Virus record (IMG/VR): IMGVR_UViG_3300036790_000516
Coordinates: 1-54,787 of that record
Strand: one strand, 5' to 3'
Length of the DNA: 54,787 nt
Origin: a virus
A program made the translations under genes and the position numbers. Shown one piece after another: positions 23,438 through 44,843 of the stretch. How positions within the stretch are numbered: position 1 is the stretch's first letter; every line of letters starts with the position of its first letter. The notes below the pieces were generated by a model. It was not told the DNA's origin. It saw nothing but the letters and a program-made list of their open reading frames with translations, and made no database searches.

Positions 23438-23511
23438 GCGGGCGTGGCCGAATGGTTAGGCTCCAGTCTTCCAAACTGGTCATCCGAGTTCGATTCTCGG
23501 CGCTCGCTCCA
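23438..23511 (+). tRNA. tRNA-Gly (anticodon TCC), encoded CCA
   Basis: Full cloverleaf: acceptor GCGGGCG with CGCTCGC (one G-U), D-stem GCC/GGC, anticodon stem CCAGT/ACTGG with loop CTTCCAA (anticodon 23470-23472), T-stem CCGAG/CTCGG with TTCGATT, discriminator T and genomic CCA. It would read GGA and GGG, glycine codons that are rare in GC-rich DNA and commoner in the AT-richer islands here. Confidence 0.92.
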
Positions 23512-31780: not shown

Positions 31781-31956
31781 CAACGGTCCTTGGATTCCAG
31801 TCCGTCTTCAACGGCACGCAGAGACTTCCATGCGAGATCGGCTAGGCGCAAGGCCCTCCCAACAGGCCAGTTCTTGCGTGACACATAGTTGCGCTGTAGG
31901 GAGATTTGGGCCAGCCAGGTCGCAACGAAAATGCGCTTGAAGGAATCTTCAGTCAT
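31780..31956 (-). CDS. Small hypothetical protein (58 aa)
   Basis: ATG lies within an ATGA overlap with the preceding GT-like gene, and its stop overlaps the methyltransferase ATG. Basic amphipathic helix content (DSFKRIFVATWLAQISLQRN; LRLADLAWKSLRAVEDG). No domain recognised; coding inferred from coupling on both sides. Confidence 0.5.
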   Translation of the reverse strand: MTEDSFKRIFVATWLAQISLQRNYVSRKNWPVGRALRLADLAWKSLRAVEDGLESKDR

Positions 31957-32642
31957 TTCGAGCCCTCGATAACGCCGCGCAACTTCTCCACGTCCCCAGC
32001 CCGCTCCGCCGCCAGCGACCTATAAAGCGCCGTAGGGTCCTGCGCCGCGTGGCGGGCCAACCGCTCCCGCGTGTTCCCGTCCATGGCCGCCTTCCCGTAG
32101 ATATAATGACAATGTTCGATCAGCAGGTCCGGGAGATAGACGCGGCGCCCCAACGCTTTCGCAACGTCCTCGTTCCAGGTGTCGCCGCCGTAGTCGGATT
32201 CGAAGTAAGGCGCGGCCATGTAGCCCAGCGTCTGGACCCAGCGGCGGCTTAGGAACGGATGTGGGATCGCGGTGCCATGGACGACGCCGTCGTCACCGCC
32301 GACGAGGACGATCCTGTCGGGGACGCGGGCGAACGCCTCCTCGACCATTGCGTTCCAGCCGGGCGTTCGAAAGACAATGTCGTCGTTCGCCAGCATGAGA
32401 ATCCCGCCCAGCGCCTGGGGGACCAGCTCGTTCCAGTAGCGGGTCATCACCCGGTCGCGCGCGCCGACGACGACCTTCGCGCCGGTTTGGCCCGCCGACC
32501 TCGCGCTTACCGGATCGTCATCGTCGAACCGGGCGAGGATTTCGATGGCGGACTCGTCGCCGTCCAGCGCCGCATAGGCGGAGTCGGCCATCCGCGCGAA
32601 CTCCATCGGGCGTTTACGGGAGGGTAGCAAGATGCTGATCAT
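31953..32642 (-). CDS. Glycosyltransferase-like protein (GT-A fold)
   Basis: 229 residues. MISILLPSRKRPMEFARM is a GT2-like N-terminus, IEILARFDDDDP and GGILMLANDDIVFRTPGW supply the acidic metal/nucleotide sites, and GDTWNEDVAKALGR resembles the catalytic ED region. Similar phage and bacterial proteins are annotated as GT2. Part of the same leftward operon as two other GT-like proteins, an FkbM methyltransferase and an RNA-ligase-like protein. Confidence 0.6.
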   Translation of the reverse strand: MISILLPSRKRPMEFARMADSAYAALDGDESAIEILARFDDDDPVSARSAGQTGAKVVVGARDRVMTRYWNELVPQALGGILMLANDDIVFRTPGWNAMVEEAFARVPDRIVLVGGDDGVVHGTAIPHPFLSRRWVQTLGYMAAPYFESDYGGDTWNEDVAKALGRRVYLPDLLIEHCHYIYGKAAMDGNTRERLARHAAQDPTALYRSLAAERAGDVEKLRGVIEGSK

Positions 32643-33339: not shown

Positions 33340-33999
33340 TCACGCCTCCCAGTACGGCCCGCTTGCCCCATACCTGAATCCAAGATGATTCATGCGCACG
33401 CCCGGCATCACGCCGACCCTGAATCCGGCCGCCTCGATCTCCCGGCAGATGGTCTCGTCGGTGTGCCGGGGCTCGCAGGCGGCGAATGTCTTGAGGATGC
33501 CGCGGCGGACGAAGGCGACGCCGCCGACGCTATGGCGGTCGATGATCTCAGATGGCCAGGCGGCAGCGGTTGACCTGTCGGATGACCAAGTGTCCCACTC
33601 AGCGATAAGATTGGCGTTCTCGATCACGCTCACCGCCGTCAGCAGGCCGTACGCGGGATTGGCCCGCAGGATGCGCACGCCGTCGGCGACGAACGTCCTG
33701 CCGAGGATCAAACAGTCGTCGTCGGCGACGATGTAAACGTCCCCCGCCGCGTGCTCCTCGGCGAAACGCTTGGCTTCCATGTGAAACTGGCTCCCGTTCG
33801 AGTCCGTCGAGTGAGCCCGCTGCAAATAGACCTTGGCGTCCTTTTGCATCCACCAACGCCCATGAACCAAGACGGCCATACTATGCCGTAAATCGCGACG
33901 TTCTCCCGACGGAATCCAAGACCGCACGAACACGTCGATCCTCTCCGCCTCCGCCACCTCCGCCGCCCCGCCCGCCTCACCCGGCATCGCCAGATCCAT
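33340..33999 (-). CDS. Glycosyltransferase-like protein (GT-A fold)
   Basis: 219 residues. IDVFVRSWIPSGERRDLRHS begins the fold, then DVYIVADDDCLILGRTF holds the DxD-type site, and a late ETICREIEAAGFRVGVMPG resembles the ED/catalytic loop. The first 19 residues are weak and overlap the previous gene, so the true start may be later, near Ile21. Third GT-like protein in this operon. Confidence 0.6.
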   Translation of the reverse strand: MDLAMPGEAGGAAEVAEAERIDVFVRSWIPSGERRDLRHSMAVLVHGRWWMQKDAKVYLQRAHSTDSNGSQFHMEAKRFAEEHAAGDVYIVADDDCLILGRTFVADGVRILRANPAYGLLTAVSVIENANLIAEWDTWSSDRSTAAAWPSEIIDRHSVGGVAFVRRGILKTFAACEPRHTDETICREIEAAGFRVGVMPGVRMNHLGFRYGASGPYWEA

Positions 34000-34627: not shown

Positions 34628-34657
34628 ATTATTGGCGCATGTGAGATACCATGTCAA
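34628..34657 (-). promoter_or_regulatory. Leftward promoter, leaderless
   Basis: On the minus strand, TTGACA (34652-34657), 18-nt spacer, AATAAT (34628-34633), then 8 nt to the ATG at 34619. Near-consensus at both boxes. Confidence 0.6.
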
Positions 34658-34740
34658 GGACTCTTTTAGGCCCGCGATGGATGGAAGACCGCACAAAATT
34701 GACGAAATATATGTATACGAGGGATGTGTTACAGAATTGA

Positions 34741-34951
34741 ATTCCATATTGCGTGGGCGCTATAACGTTGTTACGTCGTAGGTTGCCAGAACCCGCTATG
34801 GTAGACAAGCATCGATGTTTTATTCCATTATGGAGTGCAAAATGCCATTATGTAGTATCGAAAATCGGCGTTGTGGACTCCATATTGCAAAACTAAGTCG
34901 TTGAGTCTATAGGTACTTACATAGCCGATTCGGTTCGTTGCAATATGGAGT
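34741..34951. repeat. Repeated CCATATTGC motif with a 14-bp inverted repeat
   Basis: ATTCCATATTGC at 34741-34752; ACTCCATATTGCAA at 34877-34890; its exact complement TTGCAATATGGAGT at 34938-34951 (47-bp spacing); and TCCATTATGGA at 34824-34834 followed by another CCATTATG at 34845. Several related, oppositely oriented sites suggest repressor operators or origin iterons. Confidence 0.6.
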
Positions 34952-35021
34952 TCCTATACCTACCTACCTACCGTATGCTGTAGCTACGTCCACGCGTTTA
35001 CCCCGCGTGTACTCCGCTTTT

Positions 35022-35049
35022 AAAAAAAAAATAACGTGCGCCGACGGCG
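35022..35049 (-). terminator. Putative leftward intrinsic terminator
   Basis: On the minus strand a short GC hairpin (CGCC-GTC-GGCG, 35039-35049) is followed after 7 nt by ten T residues (35022-35031). It lies 91 bp past the last gene of the 37643-35140 operon. The stem is short, so strength is uncertain. Confidence 0.4.
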
Positions 35050-35139
35050 TCGTATCTCAAAACCGCTTTCTCCCCCTTTCGCCTTAACTATTGTCGGCGG
35101 GAAATGTCGGCGGATGGGGTAGTTTCGTTACATTGTTGG

Positions 35140-35490
35140 TCACGGCGTCACCGCCGTCCTCGTCATCACCATCGGCTTCAGGAATCCCGTCAAGGCGCGG
35201 GCGTCGTAGCGGATCGTCACCGACTTCATCGCGGCGTCCGTCGTGACCTCCATCGCCGACGGGTCCAGCAGCAGCCCAGCCGCCACCGTCTTCGCCCATG
35301 CGGACGGATTGCAGGCGGGCACGGCTTGCGCCTGGCAGACCGCTGCTTGCGTGGCCACGTAGGACAGCGTGACCGCCTGCTGCTCGAACCACAACAGGTC
35401 GGCGCCGGCCAGCAGCAGGAACAGCAGGACGGGGAGGGTGAGGGCGAACTCGAGCAGGACCGCGCCGCGCTGGCGGCGTTGGCGTCTCAT
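35140..35490 (-). CDS. TadE-like pseudopilin
   Basis: 116 residues. The N-terminus MRRQRRQRGAVLLEFALTLP has a basic leader, a Gly9/Ala10 prepilin-peptidase-type cleavage point and Glu at +5 (Glu14). A hydrophobic helix (VLLFLLLAGADLLW) follows, exactly the TadE/TadG signature. The C-terminal domain (residues 50-116) is small with one Cys pair. TadE-type pseudopilins are minor components of the Tad (Flp) pilus system of bacteria. In a phage it could interfere with or modify host pili. ATGA overlap with the upstream gene. Confidence 0.7.
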   Translation of the reverse strand: MRRQRRQRGAVLLEFALTLPVLLFLLLAGADLLWFEQQAVTLSYVATQAAVCQAQAVPACNPSAWAKTVAAGLLLDPSAMEVTTDAAMKSVTIRYDARALTGFLKPMVMTRTAVTP

Positions 35491-35975
35491 ACGCCCCTCC
35501 CCTCGGCACGAGTGATGGCCGCTTCAGCTTCCTTGATAGTTTTAACGAAGGCCACCATCCGTTGTAGATAGTCCAGCTGGCTGTCCCCCATTGTGTTGCT
35601 TATCAGCTCGTAACGCCCGATTAGGCCGTAGAGCCCCTTGAGCGCCGTTAGCAGCTCCGTTGTCACGTCGTCTCGGTCGCCCCATAGATCCCCCCTCCGC
35701 TGCGGTGGTTTATCGTCGTCCACCTCCGGCCCCGCGATGTCAGGGACCTCCCCGACGGGTTCCGCTGTCTCGGCCGTTACCGGCTGTTCCGGGGGCGCGG
35801 AAAGTATCTCGGGATAGCCGGGGACCGTCACCGCGCGAATGACGATTTCGCTTCCCTGGCGCCAGTCCCGCACGTATTTGGTCCCGTGCAGCGACCGCGC
35901 GACTTGCTGCTCCACTTGGGAGCGCGGGCCGACGAATTCGTAGATCCGCAGCACGCGAACGATATCCTCGCTCAT
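35487..35975 (-). CDS. Hypothetical protein (162 aa)
   Basis: Start MSEDIVRVLRIYEFVGP with GGGGGGATCT upstream, ATGA-coupled on both sides. The beta-rich first 60 residues (VRVLRIYEFVGPRSQVEQQV..EIVIRAVTVPGY) are followed by an acidic Pro-rich linker and a C-terminal helical domain. No family recognised. Its coupling to the TadE-like gene suggests joint function or simple operon economy. Confidence 0.55.
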   Translation of the reverse strand: MSEDIVRVLRIYEFVGPRSQVEQQVARSLHGTKYVRDWRQGSEIVIRAVTVPGYPEILSAPPEQPVTAETAEPVGEVPDIAGPEVDDDKPPQRRGDLWGDRDDVTTELLTALKGLYGLIGRYELISNTMGDSQLDYLQRMVAFVKTIKEAEAAITRAEGRGV

Positions 35976-36076
35976 AGATCCCCCCTCCGCTTGCGCCCCA
36001 CGATCCACATGCACAGGGCGGTCACCAGGCCGCCGATCCACAGGTACGTCGCGGGCGTCATCGTCATGACGTTCAT
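35972..36076 (-). CDS. 34-residue membrane peptide
   Basis: ATGA overlaps at both ends. One hydrophobic helix (YLWIGGLVTALCMWIVG) followed by a basic end (RKRRGDL), a positive-inside single-pass topology. Translation supported by the coupling. Could be an inhibitor peptide acting at the membrane. Confidence 0.45.
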   Translation of the reverse strand: MNVMTMTPATYLWIGGLVTALCMWIVGRKRRGDL

Positions 36077-36321
36077 AAGTCCACCCCCTCAAATAGCGCG
36101 TCGAAACAGTTGCCGCAGGTCCCGGAGATCAACAGTTCCCGTTCGTCGGCGGACAGCGACGGGATGGCCCTTTGGATGGTCTGACCACTCGTCCACGCAA
36201 GCCATTGCTTCTCGGGGATGGAGAATCGGAAGGGAGCCTTGCAGCTATCGCAAGTAGCGTCCACAATGACCACCGGCTCCCCGTTGCGCATCGTATCGGC
36301 CACGGCGCGATACATCACCAT
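36073..36321 (-). CDS. Small zinc-ribbon-like protein (82 aa)
   Basis: CDSCKAPFRF and CGNCFDALFE form two Cys pairs, 41 residues apart, likely binding one zinc. Start and stop are within overlaps with neighbours. No other features; role unknown, possibly a transcription-associated small protein. Confidence 0.5.
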   Translation of the reverse strand: MVMYRAVADTMRNGEPVVIVDATCDSCKAPFRFSIPEKQWLAWTSGQTIQRAIPSLSADERELLISGTCGNCFDALFEGVDL

Positions 36322-36650
36322 TTCTCTTCGTCGTTGACCTTCGCCACGGCCTTATCGACACGCGTTTTGAGGTCGCTGAACGCCCGACTCGGCGCCTCCT
36401 CTTGAGCCTGGCGCGAATGGTAGGCGTCGAGTTGCGCCTGCATCACTCGCGCTGCGCCAGTCGTCGTAAACTCGACGTTGAGCACGTCCCCCAGCGCGAT
36501 GCCGACGATGGACATCTCGTCCTCGTCGATCCGCACCGTTTGCATCATGGCCACCTTGAAGGCGTCCCGCTCGTCGGGCGGGCCGAATCGCAGCGTCACC
36601 GACCGCTTGCCGTCCGGCGCGAGGGCCAGTCCTACCACTTTGGCTTGCAT
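36315..36650 (-). CDS. Hypothetical protein (111 aa)
   Basis: ATG with GGAGGGACGC upstream, one-base TAATG overlap with the preceding gene. Beta-rich first half (AKVVGLALAPDGKRSVTLRF..IVGIALGDVLNVEF), helical second half with a basic end. Possibly a small binding protein. No family recognised. Confidence 0.5.
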   Translation of the reverse strand: MQAKVVGLALAPDGKRSVTLRFGPPDERDAFKVAMMQTVRIDEDEMSIVGIALGDVLNVEFTTTGAARVMQAQLDAYHSRQAQEEAPSRAFSDLKTRVDKAVAKVNDEEKW

Positions 36651-36922
36651 TAGCGTCCCTCCGCGCGGACGATGGCCGCCCCTTGAATGAGTTTCGGAAA
36701 GCTTTCCCATGAGATTGTGCGGAAGTCTTTCAGCGTCATAGGCCCGTCGCTACCATAAAACTTCCCGTTCCATTCGACAAAGGCGTCGTATCTTGGCCGT
36801 CCAGTTTCCGGGCAATGGTCGCAGGCCTCGCCAACCATCCAACCAATCGGCGCATAGATTGGAGGCAATACGTCCAACATTTCGTAAAAGCGCTCCTCTG
36901 TCACTTCGATAAAGGTTGTCAT
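36650..36922 (-). CDS. Hypothetical protein (90 aa), DUF1419-like
   Basis: FIEVTEERFYEMLDVLPP followed by GWMVGEACDH..GRPRYDAFVEWNGKFY and an acidic end resembles the DUF1419 proteins found on rhizobial plasmids and phages. Function of that family is unknown. The resemblance is by memory of the pattern and needs checking. Part of the TadE-like operon. Confidence 0.5.
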   Translation of the reverse strand: MTTFIEVTEERFYEMLDVLPPIYAPIGWMVGEACDHCPETGRPRYDAFVEWNGKFYGSDGPMTLKDFRTISWESFPKLIQGAAIVRAEGR

Positions 36923-37098
36923 TTCGTCGATCCTCCCGTCGCGTCTTCGATTGGCTCCCCCACCGTCCCAATACCCCCCGGAACGCGTTGAGAGCCTGTT
37001 TGCCGCGTTCCAGCCGTCCAGTTGGACCATCCCCACCTTGAAAGCCGTCCAGCGGCGTCCGGGCGTCCTGCGCCCGAAAACGCCGCCGTCGGCCCCAT
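36919..37098 (-). CDS. Doubtful small ORF (59 aa)
   Basis: Fills the only real gap in this operon and ends in an ATGA overlap with the DUF1419-like start. The protein is Gly/Arg/Thr-rich low complexity (AGRPDAAGRLSRWGWSNW) and a competing reading frame looks about as plausible. Only the coupling supports it. Confidence 0.25.
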   Translation of the reverse strand: MGPTAAFSGAGRPDAAGRLSRWGWSNWTAGTRQTGSQRVPGGIGTVGEPIEDATGGSTK

Positions 37099-37150
37099 CG
37101 CCCGCCCCCGGCAACTGGAGGGTAAACGCGGGGGCGGGGAGCTTGTCGTG

Positions 37151-37384
37151 TTAATCGGCCGCGTCCACCACCCCCACCGACAATTCGGCCAGCAATCCCG
37201 CCCTAGCCTGTCCGGTCAACGGCCGGCCGTTGTCGCGGTACAGCTTGCCTCCGCGATGATGACGGTCAAGGTGTTCCGCGTACGCTCGCCACCGGACCGA
37301 GGCACCGCAGAAGGAGCAGCACGTTGTCTTGCCATCGGGATGCGTACTCCCACAGGCATTGCAAAAGTAATCTCGCGGCGCCAT
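37151..37384 (-). CDS. Small zinc-finger protein (77 aa)
   Basis: Strong ribosome site GGGAGGGAATGGGAG before ATG. FCNACGSTHPDGKTTCCSFCG provides two CxxC pairs and AEHLDRHH a His cluster, so one or two zincs are likely. Resembles small HNH-less zinc proteins in phage early operons. Function unknown. Confidence 0.55.
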   Translation of the reverse strand: MAPRDYFCNACGSTHPDGKTTCCSFCGASVRWRAYAEHLDRHHRGGKLYRDNGRPLTGQARAGLLAELSVGVVDAAD

Positions 37385-37445
37385 CTCCCATTCCCTCCCG
37401 TTGCGGCGGTTGGGCGCCCGCCGTTGCGCCCCTTCCCATCGCCGG

Positions 37446-37643
37446 CTACCTCCCGCAGCTGATAATCAGCGCGTCCAGCCCGTTCAGCTTGGGATAGGTC
37501 GTCGGGTCGGCGCCGTTCTCGCAGCTGACCGCCACCTCGCTGATGCTCAGCCGCGACACCTTGTACAAGGCCTTCGCCGTCGTTGCCTTCGCCAGCATCG
37601 CCACGACCAGTACGGTTAACGCCACCGCCGCCAGAATACGCAT
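37446..37643 (-). CDS. Small exported protein (65 aa)
   Basis: GGAGGGCGGCGAAC precedes ATG. N-terminal signal or anchor (MRILAAVALTVLVVAMLAKA, cleavage perhaps after TTAKA), then about 42 residues with two cysteines (CENGADPTTY..LIISCG) that could form a disulfide. First gene of the leftward operon ending in the TadE-like gene; it would work outside the cytoplasm. Confidence 0.55.
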   Translation of the reverse strand: MRILAAVALTVLVVAMLAKATTAKALYKVSRLSISEVAVSCENGADPTTYPKLNGLDALIISCGR

Positions 37644-38560: not shown

Positions 38561-38941
38561 CTAAGCCGCTTCGGTTGGCGGGTCCTGCGTCGTGGGAGGC
38601 GGCGTGGGAGGCGGCGGTTCGGGCGGCGGCGATTGCGCTTCGTCCTCGGCGATCATCCCGCCGAGCAGCATGAGATAGGTGATGGCGTCCACGATCCGCC
38701 CGAAAACAGGCTCGCTTGAGTAGGTCTGGCCGTTCTGAACGTAGGACTCTATCGCGTCGAGATGTTTGGTGAGATAGACGAGCAGGACCTTGTTGCGCGG
38801 GAGGTTCAGGCGCGCGGCAAGTCGATTGAAGTTGTCGAAGCGGTTGGCGGTCTGCGAATATTCCTTCCCCTTGGTCTCGCTCATGCGCCGGACCTGCGTC
38901 ACGATTCGCTCGGCGATCCTGTCGAACTCGTCGAAGGTCAT
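38561..38941 (-). CDS. Conserved-type phage protein (126 aa), Nmad1-like pattern
   Basis: The core RMSETKGKEYSQTANRFDNFNR .. VYLTKHLDAIESYV .. RIVDAITYLMLLGGMIAEDE is an all-helical pattern seen in small phage proteins related to nucleotide-modification-associated domains (K-x-EY..NRFxNF). The last 30 residues are Pro-rich low complexity. ATGA-coupled upstream. Possible role in nucleotide metabolism or regulation; similarity judged by eye. Confidence 0.5.
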   Translation of the reverse strand: MTFDEFDRIAERIVTQVRRMSETKGKEYSQTANRFDNFNRLAARLNLPRNKVLLVYLTKHLDAIESYVQNGQTYSSEPVFGRIVDAITYLMLLGGMIAEDEAQSPPPEPPPPTPPPTTQDPPTEAA

Positions 38942-39750: not shown

Positions 39751-39926
39751 CGTTCCTGCCCTCCCGTCGTCTGTCGTCGTCCCAGCCGCCCGAGCGGTGC
39801 CCCGCATCTCCCGCAGATCGCCACCGGCTTCCCGTCGTATCTCCCCAGGCGAAAGCGGTGCGCGAGGCCGGCGGGGGTGCCGTCAACGCAACAATCGCCG
39901 CGGGGGGCGTGCTTGGGGGCGCTCAC
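39747..39926 (-). CDS. Small zinc-finger-like protein (59 aa)
   Basis: GTG in a GTGA overlap with the upstream stop. CC near residue 12 and CGRCG near residue 38 may bind zinc, and the chain ends TTGGQER. Coupled at both ends. Confidence 0.45.
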   Translation of the reverse strand: MSAPKHAPRGDCCVDGTPAGLAHRFRLGRYDGKPVAICGRCGAPLGRLGRRQTTGGQER

Positions 39927-40144
39927 TTGCGCCGCCCTTTCGCGATGCGCCCGGCGAATCGCTTCCCCCACCTCGCCTCGTTGGCCTTCTCGACGTTGAC
40001 CAGCGCGGCGTCCATCTTGGCCTTGGACTTGGACCGGCCGCCCTTGCGCCCCAGCTCCTTGAGGTAGAGGCGCAGGCGCTCGTCGATCCCGGCGCCGGTC
40101 GGCGGCTTGGTCGCTTTCGTCGTTTTCGCCGCCGCGTCGGCCAT
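39923..40144 (-). CDS. Small basic protein, first gene of leftward early operon (73 aa)
   Basis: Lys/Arg-rich with a GRKGGRSKSKAKMDAALVNV core; likely DNA binding. The ATG lies 10 nt after a minus-strand -10, with no ribosome site, so the message is nearly leaderless. It could be a regulator acting at the adjacent operator. Confidence 0.5.
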   Translation of the reverse strand: MADAAAKTTKATKPPTGAGIDERLRLYLKELGRKGGRSKSKAKMDAALVNVEKANEARWGKRFAGRIAKGRRK

Positions 40145-40600: not shown

Positions 40601-40840
40601 ATGGAATTCCCCCCGTGCGCGAACTTCAAGGCCAAACGTGAATGCGGCCGCTCCGCCCTGGTCCTCAGGAACGAGGGGCCGGACCACTGGACGTTCTATT
40701 GCGAGACCTGCCGGTTGATCCAGGTGGTGTCGAAGCCGACGGCCATCGTACGATCGCGCCTGCGGTCGCAGGAGGAAGCGGTGCGCAAGCGGGTGGAGGA
40801 ACGGCGGCGGCGCGAGAGGCGTCCCGTCTATTTCACATGA
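40601..40840 (+). CDS. Small zinc-ribbon-like protein (79 aa)
   Basis: CANFKAKREC and YCETCRL make a four-Cys site, followed by a highly basic helix (RKRVEERRRRERR). The stop overlaps the next ATG. Likely nucleic-acid binding. Confidence 0.5.
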   Translation: MEFPPCANFKAKRECGRSALVLRNEGPDHWTFYCETCRLIQVVSKPTAIVRSRLRSQEEAVRKRVEERRRRERRPVYFT

Positions 40841-41235
40841 GCGATCCGCGACAGCCATCGTCGCCCGCGCCGCCGCCGCAACGCGCCCGCCGTCCCGCGC
40901 TCAAGTACAACCACGATCTGGCCGCCCGCTTCGGCATCGACCCCGAGGCCCCGACCGAGCGCGAAACCGTCGGCGGCGACCTGGCCTCCCTCCCCGACCC
41001 TCCCGGCATGGGCCTCCCGGCGTCGACCCAAGCGGCTTCGGCGGGGCCTGCGACCCCCGTCCGCGTGACCGAGGACGCCATCGTCCACGTGATCATCGAG
41101 GAGATGGACGAACTCGCCGCCCGCCTCTCCGTCTACGGCATCGACTTCCCGACCGCCGCACGCCAGCAGATGGTCGACACGGCGATGGCCCTGCTGGCGG
41201 GCGTGCGGCCCGGCGGCGCGCTCAGCGGACGATGA
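40837..41235 (+). CDS. Hypothetical protein (132 aa) near terminase
   Basis: ATGA-coupled. Pro-rich basic N-terminus (SPAPPPQRARRPALKYNHDL), then a helical region with VTEDAIVHVIIEEMDELAAR and a C-terminal helix. Size and place leave it as one of two candidates for a small terminase, but no HTH is evident. Confidence 0.45.
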   Translation: MSDPRQPSSPAPPPQRARRPALKYNHDLAARFGIDPEAPTERETVGGDLASLPDPPGMGLPASTQAASAGPATPVRVTEDAIVHVIIEEMDELAARLSVYGIDFPTAARQQMVDTAMALLAGVRPGGALSGR

Positions 41236-41237
41236 CG

Positions 41238-41251
41238 TTATAACGTTATAA
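41238..41251. promoter_or_regulatory. Perfect 14-bp palindrome abutting a start codon
   Basis: TTATAACGTTATAA; its last base is the A of the ATG at 41251. It contains a -10-like TATAA on each strand. Probably an operator or promoter element for the membrane-protein gene. Confidence 0.45.
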
Positions 41252-41439
41252 TGGATAAAGAATTCAAGGATGCGGTCGACCGTGGCGACTTCGGTGCGGC
41301 TCTTAAGCGCAACGACGAGATCAACCGGCAGGTGGATCGAACCGTGCTTAAGAGGTACATCCCGATTATCCTGATCTATGTGGGCGTTTGGGCGGTCGTT
41401 CTCTGGACCGTTGTCCACTTCGTGCGAAAGTATTGGTGA
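41251..41439 (+). CDS. Single-pass membrane protein (62 aa)
   Basis: Charged N-terminal half (DKEFKDAVDRGDFGAALKRN) and a membrane helix (YIPIILIYVGVWAVVLWTVV) ending FVRKYW. No ribosome site; a palindrome lies on the start. Cytoplasmic domain inside by charge. Function unknown, unusual placement just before terminase genes. Confidence 0.5.
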   Translation: MDKEFKDAVDRGDFGAALKRNDEINRQVDRTVLKRYIPIILIYVGVWAVVLWTVVHFVRKYW

Positions 41440-41458
41440 TTGCCAAAGGGAGACTCCC

Positions 41459-41941
41459 ATGACCACGACCAAAGCCGCTTCGGACGCGATTGATCCAGAC
41501 GTCCCGCCCGCCGCCGCCGAATCCATCATCGCCGACAACAAAGAGAAACGCTCCCGCAGCGACTCGGCCCGCGCCGCCGTCGAAGCCCGCTGGACCGCAG
41601 TGCGCGAGGCCCGCGAGCAATGGATCGCCCCGTTCACCTCCCTCGACATCGAGCGCTCCCTCCAGTACCTCGAAGACCTCCGCCGCATCGCCGAGGACGG
41701 CGCGCGCATCATCGAAACGCGCATGAACGGCGACAAGCACATCCGCTGCGAATGGCGCAAGTGCAGGAAGCCGGTCGCCGGACTGCGTCCCAACGGGACT
41801 CCCTTGTGGGTCTCCTCGTTCCCGGTGCGCGACGTCAAGGACACGAACATCCAGCGGCGGATCTACTTTTGCTCGGAATTGTGCTACCAGACATGGGTCC
41901 GGGAGGGGAGCGGGGCGCGAGGGAGCGAGCCGAAAAAGTGA
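41459..41941 (+). CDS. Zinc-finger protein (160 aa) upstream of terminase
   Basis: AAAGGGAGACTCCC precedes ATG. A helical region (ARAAVEARWTAVREAREQWI) precedes CEWRKCRKPV and YFCSELCYQTW, a two-pair zinc knuckle like FCS/MYM-type fingers. A nucleic-acid-binding protein next to the terminase could be the small terminase, but the fold is not the usual HTH. GTGA-coupled downstream. Confidence 0.5.
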   Translation: MTTTKAASDAIDPDVPPAAAESIIADNKEKRSRSDSARAAVEARWTAVREAREQWIAPFTSLDIERSLQYLEDLRRIAEDGARIIETRMNGDKHIRCEWRKCRKPVAGLRPNGTPLWVSSFPVRDVKDTNIQRRIYFCSELCYQTWVREGSGARGSEPKK

Positions 41942-42027
41942 GCGGCCGATACTCCTCGCACGACGATCCGCGCCACCTGCGCCTGCTGGAATCTTCGCGT
42001 GCGCGGCTGCGCCGGAGTCCTCAATGA
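41938..42027 (+). CDS. 29-residue basic coupling peptide
   Basis: GTG in a GTGA overlap with the gene before; stop in an ATGA overlap with the terminase. Product is Arg/Ser/His-rich (HLRLLESSRARLRRSPQ). It may serve mainly to couple translation to the terminase. Confidence 0.4.
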   Translation: MSGRYSSHDDPRHLRLLESSRARLRRSPQ

Positions 42028-44843
42028 ATTACGCGGCCGTGGAGCGATTCCTCTCAAAACTCCCAATCAGGGATCGCGACAGTTCCAAGGTAGTACCCTT
42101 CCGCTTTTTCCATAACCAGCGGAAGCTGCACCGCGCCGCCGCCGAAATGGCCGACGCGGGCAAGCCCGTCCGCCTGATCGTCTGCAAGGCGCGCCGGGTG
42201 ACTTGTTCCTCCTGGGCCGAAGGCCTCCTGTTCTGCCACTGCCTGGCCTATCCCTCGTCCCACGACCTGATCGTCGCCGACGCCTTCAAAACGTCCAAAG
42301 TGCTGATGCGCGTGCCCAAGGATTTCACTCCGGCGATCCCCTTTCTCAACATCGAGGCCATCGAGCGCGAGGTGCGCTTCCCGCACCCCTCCGGCGAGTC
42401 GCTGATGCAGATCGTCACCGCCGGCAAGGACACCAGCGGCCGCGGCTTTACCGTCTCCGCCCTGCACGCCTCCGAGTGCGCGCATTACGGCTCGCCGGAA
42501 GTCTTCCCGTCGCTGCTGCCCGCGCTGCAGACCCACCGCGACACCATCGGCATCATCGAGACGACGCCGAACGGCCGCGAGGGCGAGGGCGAAGTCTTCT
42601 ACGACATGTACTGGGACGCGGCGGGAGGCAAGTCCGAGTGGAAAGCGATCTTCCTGACCTGGGTTGACGACCCCGCCTGCGTCGCCGACGAGGCCTTCGC
42701 CGCCGACGCGCCCGCCGACGACGAGGAACGCGACCTGCTCAAGCGCGGCCTGACCCTCGGCCAACTCGCCTGGCGCCGCCTCAAGATCGCCTCGCCCGAG
42801 TGCGGCGGCTCGGTCTCCACCTTCCACCAGGAATACGCGACGACGGCGGAGGAGTCCTTCATCGCCTCCGGCTATCCCGCCTTCGAGATGGAGGAAATCA
42901 ACTGGGCGCGCAAGAACGTCCGCGAACCGAAATGGCGCGGCTTCATCGAACGCTCGACCGACGGCGAACTCATCCTGCGCAAGCACGCCGAGGGGACGCT
43001 CAAGTTCTACGAGGACCCCGTCCCCGGCCATTACTACTACCTCGGCTGCGACGCCGCGCGCGGGGACGAGGGGCGCGACTTCTCCGCCATCGTCGGCTTC
43101 GACGGCACGACCGGACATCAGGTCTTCACCTATGCCGACTACTGCCAGCCGGAGATCCTGGGCTGCCACGCCAACTCCCTGGGCCGCCACTACAACCGCG
43201 CGATGATCAACGGCGACCTCACCGGCGGCTACGGCTCCGGCGCGCTCTACACGTTGCGCGAGCTGATGCGCTACCCGAACATCTACCGCTGGAAGGGCAA
43301 GGACGACAAGCTCACCGGCGCGCAGCTGTCGAAGTCGCTGTGGATCGACATCACCTCGTGGATTCGCTCGCAGATGTTCGAGTACATGCGGCTGGCGCTG
43401 CGCGAGGGCGCGGGCAGTTCCGGAGACTACGGGATCGTCCTCTACGACGCCGACCTGGTGTCCCAGATCGAACTCTGCACGCGCAAGGACGTTCGTATCG
43501 ACGTGCGCAAGGGGCACGACGATATTTTATTTGCTTGCTGTTTGGAGGGAACGCTGGTCACAACGAATGAGGGAGTCCGGGCGATAGAGTGCGTCGAAAA
43601 GGCCGAGACGGTCATGTGCCACGATGGCTCAACGGACTTTGTCGTCAGAACCGCCACAAACTTCTATCGCGGCGATCTCATCTCTATCCAGGCGTTAGGC
43701 AGCCACCGCAGATTGCAGCTCACTCGGAATCATCGCGTCTACTACTCCCGCTACGAATGGCGAAAGCGCGGAACGAAAACGCGCAAGAAGATTCGCGTTA
43801 ACGTCGGATGGAAGCCTGCCGGTGAGCTTGCCGTCGGCGATTCGCTTCTCGTGCCGAAACGCAAGGGACTTCACCCCGCGCCATTCACCGACGACCAACT
43901 CTATGTAATGGGCTGGTATCTGGCAGAAGGCTGTATCTGTCGCGGTAACAACATTAGCTTCGCTCTGCACCGTAACGAGAGCGACGTAGCAGAGCAGCTC
44001 GCGCGAATCATGGTTCAGCTTGACCCGCCAACGCCCAAATTTGCCCGAGGTCGGCTCTACGAACGCAACGCGCCACGCTTCAGACAAAGCAAGGGCAACG
44101 GGTTCGTCCTGAGCTACACGTCCGATTATTGGAGCGCGTTGCTGGGCGGAAACTGCGGACGGCTATCGGAGTCAAAGTTCCTCTCGCAAAACCTGTTCGG
44201 CTCAATGGGACTGCTCCCGCTGCTACGCGCCTGGATCGATGGCGATGGCTGCCGCTCGTCCTCGAACCAACGTGAGCATCTATTTTGCAGTACGAAGTCG
44301 GAGCAACTCGTTTGGCAGATTCGTCAAATTCTTATCGACGAGGGTATTTGGTGTACGGTTGCGCGACCGTCGAGCCAAGACATCAACGTCATCCACATGA
44401 CGCCGGAATACTTTACCAAGTTCGCTGCTCCCGGCAAGATGCGAAAGCAACGCGGCGTTGTTCGGCGATTCGAGAAGCGCCACGTCGTCGAAACCGATGA
44501 GGGCTTCTGGACACCAATTAAGATTATCCGGCACGTGCCTCATCGGGGGAATGTATACGACCTCCAGGTGCGCGGTCCCGAGACTTTCGTCGCAGAAGGC
44601 TATGCCGTCCACAACTCGATGCTCGCGAACCTGGCCCGTCTCCATTGGGCGCCGCCGCGGTCCCCGAATCGCATCCGCAGCCGCGACGACGAGATCGAGG
44701 CCGAGGCGCTGAACAAGATGAAGCTGCGCGGGGATCGGGTGGTGGACGACGCGCGCGGGATGCTGGCCCGGCATCACGCCAGGGTGCAGCGGTCGATCGA
44801 CCGGGGCGTGCGGGACGAGGACAACGTCATGGAGGACGCGTGA
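42024..44843 (+). CDS. terL: Terminase large subunit, interrupted by an in-frame intein
   Basis: 939 codons; removal of the 359-residue intein leaves 580 residues, a normal TerL length. ATPase: VCKARRVTCSSWAEG (Walker-A-like, degenerate), LHASECAHYG (Walker B), IIETTPNG (coupling motif). Nuclease: LGCDAARGDEGRDFSAI (first acidic site), MINGDLTGGYG and KGHDDILFAC (last acidic site), where the intein is inserted. TerL cuts and pumps phage DNA into the prohead. ATGA-coupled to the 29-residue ORF and GTGA-coupled to the next gene. Confidence 0.9.
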   Translation: MNYAAVERFLSKLPIRDRDSSKVVPFRFFHNQRKLHRAAAEMADAGKPVRLIVCKARRVTCSSWAEGLLFCHCLAYPSSHDLIVADAFKTSKVLMRVPKDFTPAIPFLNIEAIEREVRFPHPSGESLMQIVTAGKDTSGRGFTVSALHASECAHYGSPEVFPSLLPALQTHRDTIGIIETTPNGREGEGEVFYDMYWDAAGGKSEWKAIFLTWVDDPACVADEAFAADAPADDEERDLLKRGLTLGQLAWRRLKIASPECGGSVSTFHQEYATTAEESFIASGYPAFEMEEINWARKNVREPKWRGFIERSTDGELILRKHAEGTLKFYEDPVPGHYYYLGCDAARGDEGRDFSAIVGFDGTTGHQVFTYADYCQPEILGCHANSLGRHYNRAMINGDLTGGYGSGALYTLRELMRYPNIYRWKGKDDKLTGAQLSKSLWIDITSWIRSQMFEYMRLALREGAGSSGDYGIVLYDADLVSQIELCTRKDVRIDVRKGHDDILFACCLEGTLVTTNEGVRAIECVEKAETVMCHDGSTDFVVRTATNFYRGDLISIQALGSHRRLQLTRNHRVYYSRYEWRKRGTKTRKKIRVNVGWKPAGELAVGDSLLVPKRKGLHPAPFTDDQLYVMGWYLAEGCICRGNNISFALHRNESDVAEQLARIMVQLDPPTPKFARGRLYERNAPRFRQSKGNGFVLSYTSDYWSALLGGNCGRLSESKFLSQNLFGSMGLLPLLRAWIDGDGCRSSSNQREHLFCSTKSEQLVWQIRQILIDEGIWCTVARPSSQDINVIHMTPEYFTKFAAPGKMRKQRGVVRRFEKRHVVETDEGFWTPIKIIRHVPHRGNVYDLQVRGPETFVAEGYAVHNSMLANLARLHWAPPRSPNRIRSRDDEIEAEALNKMKLRGDRVVDDARGMLARHHARVQRSIDRGVRDEDNVMEDA
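43539..44615 (+). mobile_element. TerL intein with LAGLIDADG endonuclease
   Basis: Starts at Cys506 (CLEGTLVTTNEGV), block B LTRNHRVYY, two endonuclease motifs (MGWYLAEGCI and LRAWIDGDGCR), block F NVYDLQVRGPETFVAEGY, and ends VHN before Ser865 (the +1 nucleophile). Codons are AT-richer than the host gene, and the shift begins about 20 bp before the junction (GATATTTTATTTGCT), as expected from co-conversion on homing. Splicing should rebuild DDILFAC-SMLANLA. Confidence 0.9.

Follow-up and report, generated by a model that had tools for sequence, protein, structure and literature searches.

Our analysis of the window, i.e., the whole 54,787-nucleotide stretch of IMG/VR virus record IMGVR_UViG_3300036790_000516, points to a genuine TadE-family minor pilin gene carried as cargo by a tailed phage. 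By analogy with known pilus systems, the product would be matured by the host and would jam the initiation complex of the host's Tad pili, with the loss of a phage receptor as the outcome; we assign this reading a probability of about 0.45. The gene and its leader are the following:

35140–35490, minus strand: TadE-family minor pilin gene, 116 amino acids (PF07811 above cut-off, codon usage, pilin-like architecture predicted by AlphaFold)
35464–35490, minus strand: predicted basic prepilin leader MRRQRRQRG, 9 residues (sequence and alignment with 19 TadE proteins)

An earlier note on this DNA had taken the frame for a phage-encoded TadE-like pseudopilin of the TadE/TadG family, and the profile search, the whole-length alignment, the fold prediction and the phage context support the pseudopilin claim. 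The HMM comparison that it proposed gave a match of the protein to PF07811 (TadE) over residues 9–50 with 26.9 bits (E = 5e-6), above the curated cut-off of 22.9 bits, and a six-frame search of the whole record with this profile found the same single place at 28.2 bits. PF13400 (Tad/TadG) did not match the protein at E 0.1, and a vWA part would not fit in a protein of only 116 amino acids. Judged from these profiles, the protein is a TadE, and the TadG part of the earlier assignment is excluded. A match to an NCBIfam MFS transporter family (E = 0.003, far under its cut-off) was dismissed as due to the hydrophobic helix that the two have in common.

The features named in the note, a basic leader, a G/A cleavage point, Glu at +5 and a hydrophobic helix, are indeed present in the sequence, the cleavage itself being a prediction. 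The product starts with MRRQRRQRG followed by AVLLEFALTLPVLLFLLLAGADLLWF; the predicted prepilin cleavage falls between G9 and A10 (MRRQRRQRG/AVLLE), which makes Glu14 the +5 residue, and a long hydrophobic helix comes after it. A scan over all open frames for the prepilin motif (K/R, G-x4-E, hydrophobic helix) gave a single occurrence in the window and none in 30 shuffled windows or in 578 kb from 12 related phages. The frame has an ATG start preceded by a Shine-Dalgarno-like stretch, GAGGGG, overlaps the gene upstream through ATGA, and is the only one with phage codon usage, at 0.40 bits per codon versus −0.05 or less in the other five frames; its GC3 is 0.91.

The 19 TadE proteins, viral and bacterial, align with it over the full length, beyond the helix and into the C-terminal beta part: Glu14-Phe-Ala-Leu and Pro20 do not vary, Gly9 hardly does, and the C-terminal LTGF region is also aligned. 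With the TadE alignment as input, AlphaFold gave a confident model (pLDDT of 92.5) with a first helix of ~50 residues (3–54), a shorter one at 62–73 and three strands, an alpha-beta architecture like that of a small pilin. Comparison with solved structures listed the pilins 8v7p, 8pfb and 8uhf amid unrelated rows, and Foldseek found no significant match of the predicted structure in the PDB or a viral library. Single-protein scans with the window TadE found no relative among IMG/VR, INPHARED and PDB sequences, a plasmid scan gave one insignificant match, and the best identity to the bacterial TadE proteins found was about 35%.

The gene lies at the end of a tight leftward run of small genes, 35140–37643. 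The operon had been described as also encoding an exported 65-residue protein and a 34-residue membrane peptide, and both frames are there, with TadE last; the former has an export-signal-like start. Upstream of the TadE gene the run contains:

35487–35975, minus strand: 162-aa protein, gene directly upstream with the ATGA overlap (uncharacterised phrog_16463, E = 3e-4)
35972–36076, minus strand: 34-residue membrane peptide (open reading frame with a hydrophobic stretch; no family match)
36073–36321, minus strand: 82-aa protein with four cysteines as two CxxC pairs (uncharacterised phrog_20898)
36315–36650, minus strand: 111-aa uncharacterised protein (open reading frame, profile search)
36650–36925, minus strand: 91-aa uncharacterised protein (open reading frame, profile search)
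37151–37384, minus strand: 77-aa zinc-ribbon-like protein (weak match, under cut-off)
37446–37643, minus strand: 65-aa protein with the export-signal-like start (open reading frame with a hydrophobic N terminus; no family match)

Genes common with the phage's relatives stand on both sides of the operon, at 31953–32642 and 33340–33999 on the left and at 39923–40144, 40828–41850 and the terminase on the right, so that the TadE gene cannot be explained as a false join at the edge of a contig.

The record is that of a soil tailed phage, with phage-family matches for the major capsid, portal, terminase, DNA polymerase and helicase. Among 71 related viral contigs collected via the capsid protein (26 of them at least 50 kb), none has a TadE profile match, so that the gene can be regarded as private cargo in a variable operon, as would fit an accessory host-interaction gene. 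Two upstream operon genes and one gene farther to the right, 38561–38932, have no credible match in 34 long relatives, and by these comparisons the TadE-bearing operon looks private to this phage; since the neighbours of TadE are absent from the relatives too, these offer no clean insertion junction (empty site). The window has no match to the T2SSE ATPase (PF00437), the A24 prepilin peptidase (PF01478) or the Flp pilin (PF04964), and thus the phage TadE could work only with, or upon, pilus components of the host.

Several other features of the window and its relatives should be recorded. The AT-rich spacer after the TadE gene (34650–35100, GC about 0.43 vs. 0.64) holds direct and inverted copies of ACTCCATATTGCAA and is perhaps an origin or operator region. 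An RNA ligase gene (PF09414; 32682–33341, minus strand) adjoins two glycosyltransferase-like genes and has no match among the 12 relatives compared. A tRNA-Gly(TCC) at 23438–23511 (plus strand) matches part of a Tsukamurella plasmid at only 77% identity; as a host marker it was set aside, and no host is called from it. The terminase large-subunit gene (42024–44843, plus strand) carries an intein at residues about 507–864, a segment of ~360 residues that is absent from the relatives' terminases, starts with Cys, ends with His-Asn-Ser, and has Intein_splicing, Hint and LAGLIDADG matches each just under the Pfam cut-off. In three relatives (L010, L011 and L014) the capsid match to the window is longer by about 200–240 nt than in the others, and their capsid gene perhaps holds an insertion or intron.

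In the mechanism we favour, the host prepilin peptidase (TadV/CpaA) would cut the 9-residue leader during infection, and the mature phage TadE, held in the inner membrane by its first helix, would compete with the host TadE (CpaJ) for a place in the TadE/TadF/TadG complex that initiates the pilus at its platform. The mismatched complex would neither start nor extend the Flp pilus, and piliation would fall; the likely benefit would be superinfection exclusion through the loss of a phage receptor, or the avoidance of wasted progeny adsorption. We take CpaJ to be the Caulobacter TadE and CpaK to be TadF. Recurrence in unrelated phages counts for this pilus-tampering reading, as does an operon common with two other small frames that are envelope-directed.

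Published data on TadE-type pilins make pilus jamming, a superinfection block or an altered pilus length, all put forward in the earlier note, a consistent hypothesis. In Caulobacter, piliation requires both the TadE-type CpaJ and its partner CpaK, and deletion mutants are resistant to phiCbK (PMC12607857); CpaJ/K/L have been modelled at the base or platform of the machine as the primer of the pilus (PMC13170226). It is well established that phages make proteins which exclude superinfection by disabling type IV pili, with PilB, PilZ and others as targets (PMC11436027, PMC11656802).

A search with the TadE consensus led to three isolated Burkholderia cenocepacia phages, Momento, Milagro and Musica (Peduoviridae), in which an unannotated TadE gene is followed by a TadG-like gene (Tad and Tad_C domains) at the accessory right end, a location that we also count in favour of pilus tampering. 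A transposase pair interrupts the TadG-like gene of Momento, a phage that has another Tad and Tad_C gene nearby on the opposite strand. A DNA pattern for the TadE core retrieved further IMG/VR contigs, 14 of them with TadE above the Pfam cut-off and some of these near-duplicates. About a dozen IMG/VR contigs have an orphan TadE, several being jumbo-phage-like, and the phage genes present on several TadE contigs include those for ribonucleotide reductase, DnaB or UvsX, chaperonin, PolIII alpha and virion or tape-measure proteins. None of the TadE contigs has a T2SSE match above the cut-off or a prepilin peptidase; contig G034 is an ambiguous case: it has three TadE-like genes plus a T2SSE match below the threshold, and part of it may be host DNA.

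One jumbo-like contig bears a TadE and Tad pair. The Flp major pilin family was matched on five TadE contigs, above the cut-off on one; three further Flp-matching TadE contigs have the prepilin signature SGAT/EGAT-x-IEYG, and the match on G024 is confined to a part close to the end of a 195-residue frame. The captured sets thus comprise TadE alone, TadE with a TadG-like gene, and TadE with a Flp major pilin. Flp-type major pilins with the prepilin signature lie on the following TadE-bearing viral contigs, some jumbo-like, which have no assembly ATPase or prepilin peptidase:

L146, 1783–1941, minus strand: Flp-type major pilin
L231, 2122–2304, minus strand: Flp-type major pilin
L232, 2150–2329, minus strand: Flp-type major pilin
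L233, 2238–2411, minus strand: Flp-type major pilin

A tree of 33 TadE proteins requires 4 label changes for the phage sequences, of which well-supported branches force 3; the window TadE has a long branch and groups with no other protein with support. On this sequence evidence, capture of TadE by unrelated phages is recurrent and independent, which suggests that phages may interfere with host pili by means of pilin mimics. A literature search for phage TadE or Tad-targeting superinfection exclusion, with most subscription journals outside its coverage, found no description of either, and pilins go unmentioned in a survey of 224 jumbo phages (PMC7824862).

The same recurrence bears on the alternatives. 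Companion TadG-like or Flp genes in other phages fit the supply of pilus parts as well as poisoning, and the pairing of TadE with a Flp-type major pilin on jumbo-like contigs and with a TadG-like gene in the Burkholderia phages leans towards a boosting or re-tuning role, in which the phage TadE would join the host initiation complex productively and yield more, longer or re-specified Tad pili, for example with changed attachment or aggregation of infected cells. This role is a serious rival, since the activity of type IVa pili is set by the minor-to-major pilin ratio and excess minor pilins in V. cholerae raise pilus dynamics with no block (PMC13249403). We nevertheless judge it unlikely for the window phage, where TadE stands alone and where additional pili would leave infected cells open to additional pilus phages; whether the ratio effect extends to Tad (T4c) pili is, according to the V. 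cholerae study itself, unclear. Less probable again is a protein that has kept the TadE form for some other envelope role, such as work with the exported and membrane peptides or in lysis timing: the operon common with the 34- and 65-residue products and the long branch in the tree would fit, whereas the retained prepilin site and Glu +5 and the aligned C-terminal TadE region argue otherwise. To our knowledge, these three features have no use outside pilin assembly.

We consider it just as improbable that the gene is a recently captured host gene of no benefit to the phage. Its absence from all 71 relatives and its place at the end of an operon whose tested members are also private would suit such a passenger, but the frame is intact, with a ribosome-binding stretch, ATGA coupling and phage codon usage, the best bacterial identity of 35% means that the capture is not a fresh one, and TadE recurs in unrelated phages. 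Finally, for a metagenomic record with a gene found in no relative, one could imagine an artefact, either a helix that arose by chance or a phage contig fused with bacterial DNA; we give this almost no weight against the PF07811 score above cut-off, the absence of the motif from the shuffled windows, the codon signal in the frame, the relatives' genes on both sides of the operon and a record without any other Tad gene.

Three known systems stand closest to the window TadE. Like the bacterial TadE/CpaJ proteins of Tad (Flp, type IVc) pili (PF07811), the window protein has a G/x4-E leader, a long first helix, a predicted alpha-beta pilin architecture and an LTG-type C-terminal strand region, whereas its gene is a phage orphan without a tad locus and its identity to them is at most about 35%. 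With Momento, Musica and Milagro it has in common a phage-borne TadE in an accessory region without T2SSE ATPase or prepilin peptidase; unlike the window, these phages pair TadE with a TadG-like gene and carry an integrase, and their TadE groups in the tree with bacterial (Binatota) TadE, apart from that of the window. Tip, Aqs1, Zip and the Pf4 proteins are small phage proteins that disable a receptor pilus, the outcome proposed for the window TadE, and they act on PilB, PilZ and other type IVa parts (PMC11436027, PMC11656802); these reviews describe no pilin mimic and no inhibitor directed at Tad pili.

What our analysis adds to the earlier note is that phages have captured Tad pilins repeatedly. 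The phage inhibitors of type IV pili covered by the papers cited here bind motors or regulators (PMC11436027, PMC11656802), and a phage-made pilus subunit would be another route, that of subunit mimicry, directed at Tad pili, which phages of Caulobacter use as receptors. Since TadE, TadG-like and Flp genes recur without the machinery in unrelated phages, this idea can be put directly to the test in that organism. Taken together, we tentatively propose that unrelated tailed phages may use captured Tad subunits, without the machine itself, to block or re-programme host Tad pili as a general strategy of subunit mimicry, and that the window gene may be one independent instance of this.
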